Shown here in pieces: positions 21,355 through 30,169 of a stretch of DNA of 64,000 bases. The translations under genes were made by a program, and so were the position numbers. The notes beneath the pieces are model-generated. The model was not told the DNA's origin and made no database searches. It was given only the letters and a program-made list of their open reading frames with translations. Origin of the DNA: Desulfuromonadaceae bacterium (GTDB lineage: Bacteria > Desulfobacterota > Desulfuromonadia > Geobacterales > Pseudopelobacteraceae); contig JAQUIT010000003.1 of assembly GCA_028681335.1 (NCBI GenBank), positions 62,001 through 126,000 on the forward strand, written 5' to 3'. Position 1 is the first letter of the stretch; each line of letters opens with the position of its first letter.

Positions 21355-22641
21355 ATGCTCAATGATCGAGAGAACAACCAGCCACAACTGCCGAAGAGTT
21401 CTGATTTTGTCAGAAAGTACCTGACCGGTATCTTTCTTATGTTATGTCTGATTGTACTGTCCGTTTTCTGGGGGTTCAGTTACCGTTCCAATGCCCTGAT
21501 CAAGACTCAGTTGTTGAAGCAGGGACAAGCCTTCTTCGGGGAGGTGGTAATTACTCGTTCATGGGCGGCAAAACATGGTGGTGTCTATGTCAAGATCACT
21601 CCGGAAACGGTAGTCAACCCGTATCTTTTGCAAATACCGGGACTTAAGGTCGTCATCAAGGATGAGGACGGTGTTGCCTACACCCTGAAAAATCCTGCTT
21701 TGATGACGCGTGAGTTGTCTGAAATTGCGGCGGCCAAAGGGATGTTTAAGTTTAAAATTACCAGTCTTGACCCATTGAATCCAACCAATACGGCTGACAC
21801 GTTTGAACAGGCGGCGTTAACCTCATTCGCGCATGGTGTAAAGGAGTACTACCGTTTCGAGCAGGAGGGCGACAAGGTTTACTTCCGCTACATGGCCCCA
21901 TTGACTACCATGAAACCATGTCTCAAGTGTCATGCACAGCAGGGCTACAAAGAGGGTGATGTGCGTGGCGGTATCAGTGTCAGTATTCCTGCGACCGATA
22001 TGCTCCAGCAGATCAAGGAAAACCGCTACTATATTACTCTCATTGCCCTCTGTATCGTCGGGCTTATCTACGCAATTATCCGCTATGTTGCCCGGGTCTT
22101 TGTCGGTGACCTGAATCGGGCAGAACAGCAGTTGCGGGAGATGGCCAACCACGATTTCCTGACCGGTCTGCTTAACCGCCGCGAGGCCTACCGGCAGGTT
22201 GAGGAAGAAATGGGACGCTCGGCACGAACAGGCAGGCCGCTTGCTTTTATCCTGTTTGATATTGATTGTTTTAAACGCTTGAATGACACCTATGGCCATA
22301 ATGCCGGTGATATGGTCTTGAAACAACTTGGGGCCAAGCTGGTGTCTACCTTGCGTGATTATGATATTGCCTGCCGGTATGGCGGTGAGGAGTTTCTGGT
22401 CGTGGCGCCTGAAACCGACCTAAAGCAAGCAGTAATACTTGCTGAACGGCTGCGTATGATTGTCTCTGAAGCCAATTTCAGCACCGATGCCGAAGATGTT
22501 GCCGTTACTGTCAGTATGGGAGTGAGTATGTTACAGCACTCTGATACCATTGAAACGGCTATCTCAAGGGCTGATGTTGCTCTCTACCAGGCCAAGGAGG
22601 GTGGCCGCAATCGTGTCTGCATGGCTGGTGAGGCTCCTTAA
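21355..22641 (+). CDS. Diguanylate cyclase with Tll0287-like (DUF3365) heme-type sensor domain
   Basis: A 428-residue protein. One N-terminal transmembrane helix, a periplasmic DUF3365/Tll0287-like domain (about 50-215) with a CxxCH heme-attachment motif (KPCLKCHAQQG), and a second helix (YYITLIALCIVGLIYAII) precede the GGDEF domain. The catalytic motif is RYGGEEFLVV. An inhibitory RxxD site (RDYD) lies five residues before it. Guanine-binding residues are kept (LNDTYGHNAGD), so it should make c-di-GMP rather than cGAMP. It probably links a periplasmic redox or gas signal to c-di-GMP. A terminator follows. Confidence 0.9.
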   Translation: MLNDRENNQPQLPKSSDFVRKYLTGIFLMLCLIVLSVFWGFSYRSNALIKTQLLKQGQAFFGEVVITRSWAAKHGGVYVKITPETVVNPYLLQIPGLKVVIKDEDGVAYTLKNPALMTRELSEIAAAKGMFKFKITSLDPLNPTNTADTFEQAALTSFAHGVKEYYRFEQEGDKVYFRYMAPLTTMKPCLKCHAQQGYKEGDVRGGISVSIPATDMLQQIKENRYYITLIALCIVGLIYAIIRYVARVFVGDLNRAEQQLREMANHDFLTGLLNRREAYRQVEEEMGRSARTGRPLAFILFDIDCFKRLNDTYGHNAGDMVLKQLGAKLVSTLRDYDIACRYGGEEFLVVAPETDLKQAVILAERLRMIVSEANFSTDAEDVAVTVSMGVSMLQHSDTIETAISRADVALYQAKEGGRNRVCMAGEAP

Positions 22642-26618: not shown

Positions 26619-26724
26619 ATGTCAGTGTGAAATTGCATCACAGTGTTTTTTGTGATCTGAATCACATATATATTGATTTTTATCGGTTATAAGTCGAACA
26701 AATTACAAGCAGATCGGTTAGCAT

Positions 26725-26806
26725 GCGTACACGATAATACTAAACCATTCGTGAGAATGGGACGGAAAGCCTATAGGGTCTCAACGAGACAGCCGGGTCG
26801 CCGAAA
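26725..26806 (+). ncRNA. GEMM-I riboswitch aptamer, probable cGAMP (GEMM-Ib) subtype
   Basis: Conserved GEMM-I elements are present: acacgataatac, aaaccattcgtgagaatggg (the P2 hairpin), gacggaaagcc, and agccgggtcgccgaa at the 3' side, with a second hairpin gggtctcaacgagac. Aligned by eye to the V. cholerae Vc2 aptamer, the base at the G20 position is A. A20 is the mark of the GEMM-Ib subtype, which binds 3',3'-cGAMP and is common in Geobacter. The transcript leads into the fibronectin lipoprotein gene. Confidence 0.85.
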
Positions 26807-26838
26807 TATCATGATCGATATTCGGCCCCGGCTTTTTT
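26792..26838 (+). terminator. Riboswitch expression-platform terminator
   Basis: gccgggtcgccgaaatatc pairs with gatattcggccccggc, followed by six T. The left arm includes the 3' strand of the aptamer, so ligand-bound aptamer and terminator exclude each other. The predicted logic is ON: ligand prevents termination. Confidence 0.75.
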
Positions 26839-26895: not shown

Positions 26896-28707
26896 ATGAG
26901 AATGTTTGCAAGAAGTACGTCTCTAATGTTTATTATTTTAACCTTGGTTGTTGCCGTACTGATAATGGCCGGATGCGGTTCTGGAGGCGGGGGGGTCTCG
27001 TCCCAGGTTGTTAGCGGCAACGCCGCTGTCGGTGTACCGCTGGCAGGGCAAGTAAGTCTCAAGGATTCCTCGTCTCCGCCACAGCAGAAAACAACGGTTA
27101 TTGGCAGTGACGGTTCTTTTGCTTTCGACGTTACCGGCCTGAAAGCACCCTATATTCTGCAGGGAAACGGCACCGTTTCGGGAGTTACCTATAAATTGCA
27201 CTCCTTTGCAAGCGGTACCGGGATTGCGAATGTTAATCCCCTTTCAAATGTCGTGGTTGCCGGTGCTGCAGGTGTCAGTGATCCGCAACAGGTGTACGCA
27301 GCGCCTGATGCACTCACCCTCAATAAAATTAAAACCGGACTACCTGTCGTAACCAGCGAAATTCTCAATAAGCTCCAGCCTCTGCTCGCTTTGTACAATG
27401 CTATCGGCAAGAACCCGATCACGGACCATTATGATGCCGATCACCAGGGCCTGGACGGCATGTTTGATGACGTAACTATCACCATCACCAACGGTGTTGT
27501 CGCGGTTGTTAATGCTCAAAGCGGTGCCGTGATTTTCACAGCCAGTGTTGTGGATATAACTAATGGCCAGTTTTCTACCGATCCGGCAAGCCTGCCGCAA
27601 CCGCCGGCGGTGCCTGCCTCACCGACCGCTGTTTCGGCAGCTGTAGGCACAGGCCAGGTGACTCTTTCCTGGAGTGCAGTCAGCGGGGCGAGCTCGTACA
27701 ATCTGTACTATTCAACGACACCAGGGGTGACAACTGTCAGCGGCACGAAAATATCCAATGCAACAACGCCATACCTGCAATCCGGTCTTGCTGCCGGTAC
27801 GTCCTACTATTACATCGTTACCGCATTAAACAGCTCCGGTGAAAGCAATCCTTCTGCACAGGTTTCGGCCAGCGTACCGGCTGCGTCTGCAGCACCGGCC
27901 ATGCCGGCTTCCCCGTCAGGTGTTATCGCCACAGGTGGCACCAAACAGGTGACATTGTCGTGGAACAGCGTCAGTACGGCCGCCTCCTATAATGTGTATT
28001 ACGCAACCAGCCCGGGAGTTACCACTACTAACGGCACTAAAATAGCCAATGTCACAAGTCCTGCCGTTCATAGCGATCTGTCTGATGCTACCAGCTACTA
28101 CTACATTGTTACGGCAGTTAACGGTAGTGGGGAAGGTGCTGCCTCGGTACAGGTTGCCGCAACCACGCTCAGCCCTGTACCCAGTCCGACCGTTCCGACA
28201 AAGCCGTCCGGGCTGAATGCTGTTGGTGGCGTAAATCAGGTAACCCTGAGCTGGACAGCGGTTGCGGGGGCAAGCTCGTATAATATTTACTGGTCAGCAA
28301 CATCAGGAGTAACTACTGTCAGCGGAACTAAAGTGTCCGGGATTACCAGCCCTTATGTTAAGACAGGTCTTGCTGCTGGCACTCCGTACTATTTCATCGT
28401 CACGGCTGTCAACAGTGTCGGGGAAAGCGTCGCCTCGGCTCAGGTAACAGCTACAACCAGTGCGCCGGTAACCAAACAGCTTACGCTTGCCTGGGACGCA
28501 GTTGCAAACGCTACATCCTATAACCTCTACTGGTCAACCGTACCCGGCGTTACACCCGCCAACGGGACAAAAATCAGCGGCGTCAGCAGTCCGTACACAC
28601 ATACCGGGCTGGCTGCCGGGACCACTTATTACTATGTTGTAACAGCAGTTGATAGTACCAGCGAAAGTTCTGCCTCGTCCCCGGCCTCCGGGACTACTTC
28701 ACTGTGA
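26896..28707 (+). CDS. Fibronectin type III lipoprotein under riboswitch control
   Basis: A 603-residue lipoprotein. I choose 26896 (aaaaggagcctct ATG); 26875 (ggagggtgtcgc ATG) is an equally possible start, and both give the lipobox IMAGC. Residues about 25-200 are a Geobacter-type surface domain (GVPLAGQVSLKD, GSDGSFAFDVTGLKAPYIL). Four fibronectin III repeats follow, each with QVTLSW..V..ASSYNLYY or similar and YYIVTAVNSSGES; the last lacks its first strand. The repeats are very alike. The protein is probably a cell-surface adhesin or matrix protein. Its 5' leader carries the GEMM-I riboswitch, so it is likely switched by a cyclic dinucleotide. Confidence 0.85.
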   Translation: MRMFARSTSLMFIILTLVVAVLIMAGCGSGGGGVSSQVVSGNAAVGVPLAGQVSLKDSSSPPQQKTTVIGSDGSFAFDVTGLKAPYILQGNGTVSGVTYKLHSFASGTGIANVNPLSNVVVAGAAGVSDPQQVYAAPDALTLNKIKTGLPVVTSEILNKLQPLLALYNAIGKNPITDHYDADHQGLDGMFDDVTITITNGVVAVVNAQSGAVIFTASVVDITNGQFSTDPASLPQPPAVPASPTAVSAAVGTGQVTLSWSAVSGASSYNLYYSTTPGVTTVSGTKISNATTPYLQSGLAAGTSYYYIVTALNSSGESNPSAQVSASVPAASAAPAMPASPSGVIATGGTKQVTLSWNSVSTAASYNVYYATSPGVTTTNGTKIANVTSPAVHSDLSDATSYYYIVTAVNGSGEGAASVQVAATTLSPVPSPTVPTKPSGLNAVGGVNQVTLSWTAVAGASSYNIYWSATSGVTTVSGTKVSGITSPYVKTGLAAGTPYYFIVTAVNSVGESVASAQVTATTSAPVTKQLTLAWDAVANATSYNLYWSTVPGVTPANGTKISGVSSPYTHTGLAAGTTYYYVVTAVDSTSESSASSPASGTTSL

Positions 28708-28747: not shown

Positions 28748-28815
28748 AGCTTGAAGCCGGGAGGCTGATGGCGTAATGTACGAACCCCCGTTGGGCATGC
28801 CCTGACGGGGGTTTC
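28748..28815 (+). terminator. Terminator within a dispersed repeat (copy 2)
   Basis: cgaacccccg / gacgggggttt ends the fibronectin gene. It is the second copy of the 68-bp repeat also found after acnB (25497-25564). Confidence 0.8.
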
Positions 28816-28897
28816 TGTTTTGTTACTGAGAAGTTTACCTGATTGAGGTTGGGCAGCGCCGGTAACGTCTTAATTGACCTTTTGGAGGAGTTTGAAA

Positions 28898-30169
28898 TTG
28901 CAGATCGTATTCGGTATTGACTTTGGTACAACAAATTCAGCGCTTTCAGTTTACAGGAACGGTACGGTCGAGGTACTAGCTGTTGACGGCAACGGCGGTG
29001 CCGGGGAACTGATGCGCTCGGTGCTCTATTTCAGCGAAGAAAACGAAATCTATGCCGGGCATGAGGCCATCAGCCACTATGTCAGCGATGGGGCGGCCGG
29101 GCGATTTATGCAGTCTATCAAGACATTTCTCCCGAACACCAGTTTTGACAGCACCGAGATCTTCGGTAAACGCTATATGATCGATGATCTGGTGGCTATC
29201 ATCCTCAGGAAACTCAAGGCCAGCGGAGAAGCTCATGTCGGGTGCCCGGTTGATAGTGTCGTTCTTGGCCGGCCGGTGGTGTTTTCGACCGATGCCGCCA
29301 AGGATGCCGTGGCGGAAAAACGCCTTGAAAAGGCTGCCCGCAAGGCCGGATTCAAAAATATCTGGTTTCAGTATGAGCCGGTAGCGGCGGCGCTGGCATT
29401 TGAAAGTACACTGCAGGCCGGACAGGAACGGACCGTGTTCATCGGCGATTTCGGCGGCGGCACTTCCGATTTCTCAGTTATCCGCGTCAAGGGGGGAGAC
29501 TTTGCCAGATCCGATCGGCGCAGTGATGTGCTCTCGCTCGGCGGGGTATACGTGGCTGGAGACAAGTTCGATTCTCAGATCATGTGGGATAAGGTGGCGC
29601 ACCATTTCGGGCGCTATGCGCGCTACAAAACCATGGGAAAGGAAGAGTGGGTCAGTATCCCCAAGAGCATTATCTATACCCTCTGTCAGTGGCATCGCAT
29701 TCCGCTTCTGCGGGCGCGTAAAACCAGGGAACTTATCCGGGTGATAAAGGGTACAACAGACGACTGCCGAGCCCTCGAACATCTGGAGAATATCATCAGT
29801 GATAACTACGGTTTTTTCCTCTTTCAAGCTATTGAAAAGGCCAAGTGCGAATTGTCTGACCGGGATCGGGCACTCATCAGCTTTACGGAGCGCGATCTCT
29901 GTATCAGTGAGGATCTTGGCAAGGGAGAATTCGAGATGCTCAATGCGGAAAACTTCCAGCAGATTACGACGTGCATTGACGGCGTTATTGCCGGGTCCGG
30001 TCTGTTGTCGGCGCAGATAGACACCGTCTTTCTTACCGGTGGTACCTCACGTATACCCCATATCCAGGCTCTGTTTGCCGAGCGCTTTGGTCTTGATAAA
30101 CTGGAGAAACGGGATGCCTTTACCAGTGTTGTCCATGGTCTTGGTGCCAGCGTGCCGCTGTATATCTGA
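28898..30169 (+). CDS. Hsp70-family protein (YegD-like)
   Basis: A 423-residue protein with a TTG start at 28898, placed by ttttggaggag 7 nt upstream. It carries the actin-like ATPase fold: phosphate 1 IVFGIDFGTTNSALSVYRNG, phosphate 2 VFIGDFGGGTSDFSVIRV, adenosine motif TVFLTGGTSRIPHIQALF. It has no substrate-binding domain of the DnaK type, so it is shorter than DnaK, as in YegD. VGCPVDSVVLGRPVVF is the usual second-subdomain segment. A chaperone-like ATPase of unknown client. Confidence 0.9.
   Translation: MQIVFGIDFGTTNSALSVYRNGTVEVLAVDGNGGAGELMRSVLYFSEENEIYAGHEAISHYVSDGAAGRFMQSIKTFLPNTSFDSTEIFGKRYMIDDLVAIILRKLKASGEAHVGCPVDSVVLGRPVVFSTDAAKDAVAEKRLEKAARKAGFKNIWFQYEPVAAALAFESTLQAGQERTVFIGDFGGGTSDFSVIRVKGGDFARSDRRSDVLSLGGVYVAGDKFDSQIMWDKVAHHFGRYARYKTMGKEEWVSIPKSIIYTLCQWHRIPLLRARKTRELIRVIKGTTDDCRALEHLENIISDNYGFFLFQAIEKAKCELSDRDRALISFTERDLCISEDLGKGEFEMLNAENFQQITTCIDGVIAGSGLLSAQIDTVFLTGGTSRIPHIQALFAERFGLDKLEKRDAFTSVVHGLGASVPLYI

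Follow-up and report, generated by a model that had tools for sequence, protein, structure and literature searches.

In Geobacter sulfurreducens, mutation of gacA lowers the expression of genes located behind GEMM-Ib riboswitches, transcription being terminated close to the aptamer, and the switch of pgcA shows about 1200-fold selectivity for cGAMP (PMC6456294). Two enzymes with Ser at the Hypr position have been described in this species, GacA and the GGDDF protein GSU1937 (PMC8835794). The gene pgcA (GSU1761) encodes a GEMM-Ib-controlled surface lipoprotein that helps to respire iron oxides and contains three heme domains, PT repeats and a non-heme domain (PDB 9I0D/9I0E). The mechanism of such switches is illustrated by the pilM riboswitch of Geobacter metallireducens, for which mutually exclusive folds were measured, with the ligand-pairing C sequestered in the terminator (PMC9262584).

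Proteins with fibronectin type III (FN3) domains have also been found behind these RNAs. GSU1945 is listed among the GEMM-Ib transcripts of G. sulfurreducens (PMC8835794) and annotated as an FN3 domain protein (PMC10599522), KN400_1971, likewise an FN3 protein, is preceded by a GEMM riboswitch in which mutations arose over 17 years on an anode (PMC13194489), and the triplicated GEMM-controlled FN3 genes Gbem_1796, Gbem_1798 and Gbem_1799 of Geobacter bemidjiensis, thought to encode outer-surface proteins, were reported in 2010 (PMC2996986), before cGAMP was known as a ligand. By description, all of these resemble the locus studied here, in which a GEMM-I riboswitch precedes an FN3 protein gene. 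GSU1945 and KN400_1971 are presumably the same gene.

The locus is located in a stretch of 64,000 nucleotides from a Desulfuromonadaceae bacterium (the window). The support for it is good, and it is a further case of an arrangement already known, as a GEMM riboswitch before an FN3 gene is not new; it also adds a well-supported cGAMP target. In the Geobacter GEMM literature examined, no statement was found of the PgcA non-heme domain in such FN3 proteins, of a heme-free clade or of a CRP-type box. FN3 proteins behind GEMM riboswitches, known since 2010 without a role, can share the non-heme domain of PgcA. The features of the locus are detailed in Table 1.

Table 1. Features of the riboswitch–lipoprotein locus, in positions of the window.
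Feature	Position	Strand	Details
CRP/FNR-family-type palindrome TGTGATCTGAATCACA	26651–26666	+	Perfect match to TGTGA-N6-TCACA; putative function
-10-like element TATAAG	26688–26693	+	Read from sequence; transcription start probably near 26700
Whole predicted GEMM-Ib aptamer, including lineage-specific P1 helix	26722–26813	+	CATG-N-GTA with TATCATG, one bulged base
Aptamer core, RF01051 match	26729–26805	+	46.0 bits, cut-off 35
A20 (Vc2 numbering), base marking GEMM-Ib	26739	+	Covariance alignment, model position 11
P2 hairpin, GUGA (GNRA) tetraloop	26745–26760	+	5 of 6 pairs altered on both sides across ten copies
A47, stacks between ligand bases	26766	+	Covariance alignment
Intrinsic terminator	26791–26838	+	Stem 26791–26833, U run to 26838; left arm is the aptamer 3' strand
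C92, pairs with ligand guanine; inside terminator stem in the OFF fold	26801	+	Covariance alignment and fold
Lipoprotein gene	26896–28707	+	603 aa when started at ATG 26896 (ATG 26875 also possible); signal peptide with Cys27 in the lipobox, non-heme domain of PgcA type, four FN3, no CxxCH
Domain homologous to the PgcA non-heme domain	26977–27609	+	phmmer E 2e-41 to 9i0d
Terminator 3' of the lipoprotein gene	28782–28814	+

The aptamer and its counterparts in the genome

An Rfam covariance scan of the whole window returned two RNAs, one tRNA and one riboswitch. The latter was a match to RF01051 (c-di-GMP-I) above the gathering score (E 8e-6), in agreement with the initial annotation, which had claimed a GEMM-I aptamer at this place; the variant families c-di-GMP-I-GGC (RF03167) and c-di-GMP-I-UAU (RF03168) had no match in the window above the cmscan threshold. 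P1b, P2 with its GNRA loop, P3, A47, C92 and the letters of C44 and G83 were all present. The base at Vc2 position 20, previously read as A by eye, was also A in the covariance alignment, where a G would have contradicted that reading. This placement takes model position 11 of RF01051 to be Vc2 position 20, on the basis of the Vc2 structure, and it fits the location of P1b, the paired dinucleotide after it.

The outer helix of the aptamer has a particular form in this lineage. Most copies are closed by GATA/TATC, while the window has CGTA at that place, which pairs poorly; further out, CATGCGTA (26722–26729) pairs with TATCATG (26807–26813) with one bulged base. The pair of motifs CATGNGTA and TATCATG was kept in all five members of a clade formed by the window genome and the orthologues L059, L118, L119 and L120, and the aptamer therefore probably starts a few bases upstream of 26725. 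The initial annotation had placed the start at 26725: the aptamer itself stood, and its extent was too short. By nearest-neighbour folding the aptamer alone was not unusually stable (z -1.0), as is expected when a fold is stabilised by its ligand.

The source genome (40 contigs, 4.0 Mb) contained 14 matches to RF01051, of which four had G20 and ten, including the window copy, had A20. The G20 copies scored 56–60 bits and showed the GGC...GACGC pattern or close variants, whereas the A20 copies scored 33–48 bits, with AAUACUAAAC...CGGAAAGC or close variants, so that both groups were clearly separate in score and sequence; one of the ten A20 copies, L014, scored under the RF01051 cut-off. The window aptamer carried the full consensus of the A20 set. 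Over these ten copies 96.7% of the cells of the proposed helices were paired, six pairs had changed on both sides, and none of 500 shuffles reached as high a covariation.

Positions 43 and 90 also covaried among 65 distinct A20-type aptamers, with A.C in 37, G.U in 21, A-U in 5 and G-C in 2 (raw counts that ignore kinship). The window has A.C at these positions (26762/26799), and L009 and L005, which lie in tandem, are identical over their 77-base core except at this pair and at one loop base. A pair of wobble type could tune ligand affinity or selectivity.

Among the GEMM-Ia copies, L003 (G000:C15:29155-29229) and L001 (G000:C34:85988-86081) have G20 and A47, but U and G, respectively, at position 92. 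Relatives of L003 share this U92 in at least four cases (L212, L213, L215 and L219), and other relatives had C92; an altered ligand or a tolerated G.U pair are possible explanations. In relatives, the c-di-GMP-I-GGC and c-di-GMP-I-UAU variants scored best for the aptamers L127, L128, L129, L130, L131, L133, L140 and L147, and several of those displayed still had G20 and A47.

Predicted transcriptional control and a plausible source of cGAMP

The terminator hairpin with its U tract (26787–26838) had a folding energy of -25.7 kcal/mol (z -4.9), and no shuffled sequence was equally stable. Its left arm, from 26791, uses bases that in the aptamer form the 3' side of P3 and of the binding pocket, among them G83 (26792) and C92, which is the overlap anticipated in the initial annotation as the anatomy of an ON switch. 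When the growing transcript was folded, the fold with P2 and P3 persisted to about 26825, after which the terminator fold was favoured by more than 10 kcal/mol. Ligand and tertiary contacts lie outside the model of ViennaRNA, and the result thus shows the mutual exclusion of both folds, with the terminator as the unliganded end state. Since C92 and the rest of the aptamer's 3' strand also serve the strong terminator, the RNA is predicted to act as a transcriptional ON switch, with the same logic as the pilM riboswitch of G. metallireducens, although the controlled gene is another one and the P1 sequence differs.

Taken as a whole, the window RNA is very probably a GEMM-Ib (3',3'-cGAMP) riboswitch exerting ON control over one lipoprotein gene by transcription attenuation. 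Transcription would start near 26700, and RNA polymerase would make the aptamer first. cGAMP, if present, would occupy the space between A20 and C92, with A47 inserted between the bases of the ligand; this would keep the P1 and P3 strands in the aptamer, so that the terminator would be blocked and the gene read. In the unliganded RNA, the aptamer's 3' strand with C92 would join the stronger terminator hairpin and transcription would stop at 26833–26838.

Hypr GGDEF synthases, with Ser in place of Asp, are encoded in the same genome. Ser was present at the Hypr position in 2 of 30 readable GGDEF domains. One of them, L039, is a receiver-GGDEF protein of GacA type (GHMVGS, GGDEY), and the other, L048 (G000:C25:29800-31500), is a membrane GGDEF protein with a GGDDF motif that resembles GSU1937, the second cGAMP synthase of G. 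sulfurreducens. With both types encoded, a source of cGAMP is plausible, and these two proteins would supply the ligand. An orthologue of L039 was detected in 34 of the 39 genomes searched, and all 30 orthologues that were read (29 from relatives and that of the window genome) had Ser at the Hypr position.

Co-occurrence of GEMM-Ib and GacA was considered as independent evidence for cGAMP and rejected as too loose: two of the 39 genomes had neither, three had only the enzyme and three only the RNA. In other words, five relatives were without a good GEMM-Ib match and three of them still had a GacA orthologue, and three genomes with GEMM-Ib had no GacA orthologue at the threshold applied (E 1e-80).

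The single GGDEF protein considered within the window (21355–22641) has GHNAGD, with the canonical Asp at the Hypr position, and it therefore keeps the residue for c-di-GMP that had been ascribed to it. A Tll0287-like domain (PF11845) and, with it, a CLKCH motif are also present in this protein, for which reason it may be a diguanylate cyclase that senses through heme c.

Genes of surface electron transfer are among those behind other A20-type copies. Examples are a predicted PilM gene (behind L012), a multi-heme, PgcA-like lipoprotein that has PT repeats (behind L013; whole gene L056:4366-6219), a putative lipoprotein resembling YkuD-type transpeptidases behind two tandem copies (L009 and L005), and a putative multiheme cytochrome behind L011. 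The cGAMP regulon of G. sulfurreducens comprises the same kinds of genes (PMC6456294).

A preference of the window RNA for cGAMP over c-di-GMP is thus suggested by A20, the set of copies and the pathway genes, the knowledge of which A20 aptamers are selective being taken from later papers on GEMM-Ib. An ordinary c-di-GMP riboswitch (GEMM-Ia) would agree with the placement of the RNA in the c-di-GMP-I family by Rfam, but A20, a P1b of C-G/U-G instead of the Ia pattern and the clear distance from the four G20 copies of this genome make it extremely improbable. Hardly more credible is a decayed aptamer whose terminator works alone as a constitutive attenuator. The deviation of the outer P1 from the common GATA/TATC form could be taken in its favour, and a decayed P1 was indeed considered and then dropped, because the alternative CATG-N-GTA/TATCATG helix is conserved in all five members of the lineage; every position in contact with the ligand is kept as well.

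A GEMM-I switch responsive to both cGAMP and c-di-GMP, by which the gene would integrate both messengers, has a somewhat better standing and is nevertheless unlikely. For G. sulfurreducens, a response of the omcST riboswitch to both ligands has been reported (PMC6456294), and for this reason A20 alone is no guarantee of selectivity for cGAMP; by analogy with omcST, an assignment of cGAMP preference may fail in single cases. Position 20 is a selectivity factor and no hard filter (PMC9262584), and about 30 canonical GGDEF domains in the genome make the presence of c-di-GMP likely. The full consensus of the ten-copy set in the window aptamer and the strong cGAMP selectivity of the pgcA switch speak against such a dual response.

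The lipoprotein and its PgcA-type domain

The initial annotation had described a lipoprotein with four FN3 repeats, and the gene indeed encodes a predicted lipoprotein with four FN3 matches. Its N-terminal domain, of 200 amino acids, matched 9i0d with E 4e-67 in the profile search, compared with the value in Table 1 for the search with a single sequence, and the AlphaFold model of the domain (pLDDT 93) was superposed on 9i0d by Foldseek with a TM score of 0.87 and 45% identity. D187 and D191 of the window protein appear to match the Asp residues mutated in 9I0D (D208 and D212).

The protein shares with PgcA the non-heme domain, which is N-terminal, and differs from it in the remaining parts, with three heme domains and PT repeats in PgcA against FN3 repeats and no CxxCH heme motif in the window protein. 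Its only Cys is that of the lipobox, Cys27, and consequently it would carry no c-type heme. The product is predicted to be a lipoprotein of the outer surface, with the PgcA non-heme domain followed by the FN3 repeats, probably adhesive or acting as a spacer, and made alongside the machinery for respiring mineral surfaces. This location and role are inferred, as are the ligand preference and the direction of the switch in vivo, whereas the aptamer with A20, its overlap with the terminator, the conservation, the synthase genes and the homology of the domain were observed directly. If the window protein is a heme-free relative of PgcA, control by cGAMP would extend beyond the cytochromes to a component for adhesion or spacing within the apparatus that contacts minerals.

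The unit is probably monocistronic, since the gene is followed by a terminator. A short HSP70/MreB-like protein (431 aa, 28874–30169 of the window) comes after both.

Conservation among orthologues and the putative promoter

To describe the regions upstream of the orthologues, a covariance model built from the ten A20 copies was used; the window copy formed part of the training set, and its own score is not independent. A20-type aptamers preceded the lipoprotein gene in each of the 11 same-genus orthologues (L059–L069), nine of which had two, with scores of 97–109 bits. They were also present in L118–L120, which are metagenome assemblies labelled Desulfuromonadaceae, Deltaproteobacteria and Geobacter sp., giving 14 of 14 close orthologues examined (L121 was not counted beside L061).

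Two CxxCH motifs were present in the terminal domain of L060, L061, L063 and L065–L069. L064 had one CxxCH and a C-terminal domain of another type, and the reading frame of L062 was broken before its end. No CxxCH was detected in the window protein, L059, L118 or L120, and L119 was masked near its end. The simplest reading of these sequences is a single loss of heme in the clade of the window genome, L059 and L118–L120.

Upstream of the aptamer, TGTGATCTGAATCACA was the only perfect TGTGA-N6-TCACA palindrome in the 187 kb of this genome examined. It was kept, with variable middle bases, in L059, L118, L119 and L120, and was absent from more distant orthologues. The same clade of five members combines a lack of heme motifs with the CRP-type box. 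TATAAC or a close match was found at the place of the -10-like element in L059 and L118–L120, and the scan for the sigma-70 consensus did not report the TATAAG of the window. With TATAAG taken as the -10 element, the centre of the palindrome would fall at about -41.5, which is the class II position of activators of the CRP/FNR family. The genome has two clear CRP-type regulators, and a control layer of the CRP/FNR family at the promoter of the lipoprotein gene would be consistent with these sequence features.

Tentatively, these data could indicate that a lineage related to Geobacter turned a cGAMP-controlled lipoprotein of the PgcA family into a heme-free FN3 surface protein, under two layers of control, one by a CRP/FNR-family regulator at the promoter and the other by cGAMP through the terminator; the evidence leaves this somewhat short of an even chance.

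Between the tandem aptamers of L060–L063 and L065–L069, a conserved stretch like CAAAATACGACACAGGAGGTGACCCATCAC and a Shine-Dalgarno-like sequence were observed, and in several of these spacers there is a very short possible reading frame.
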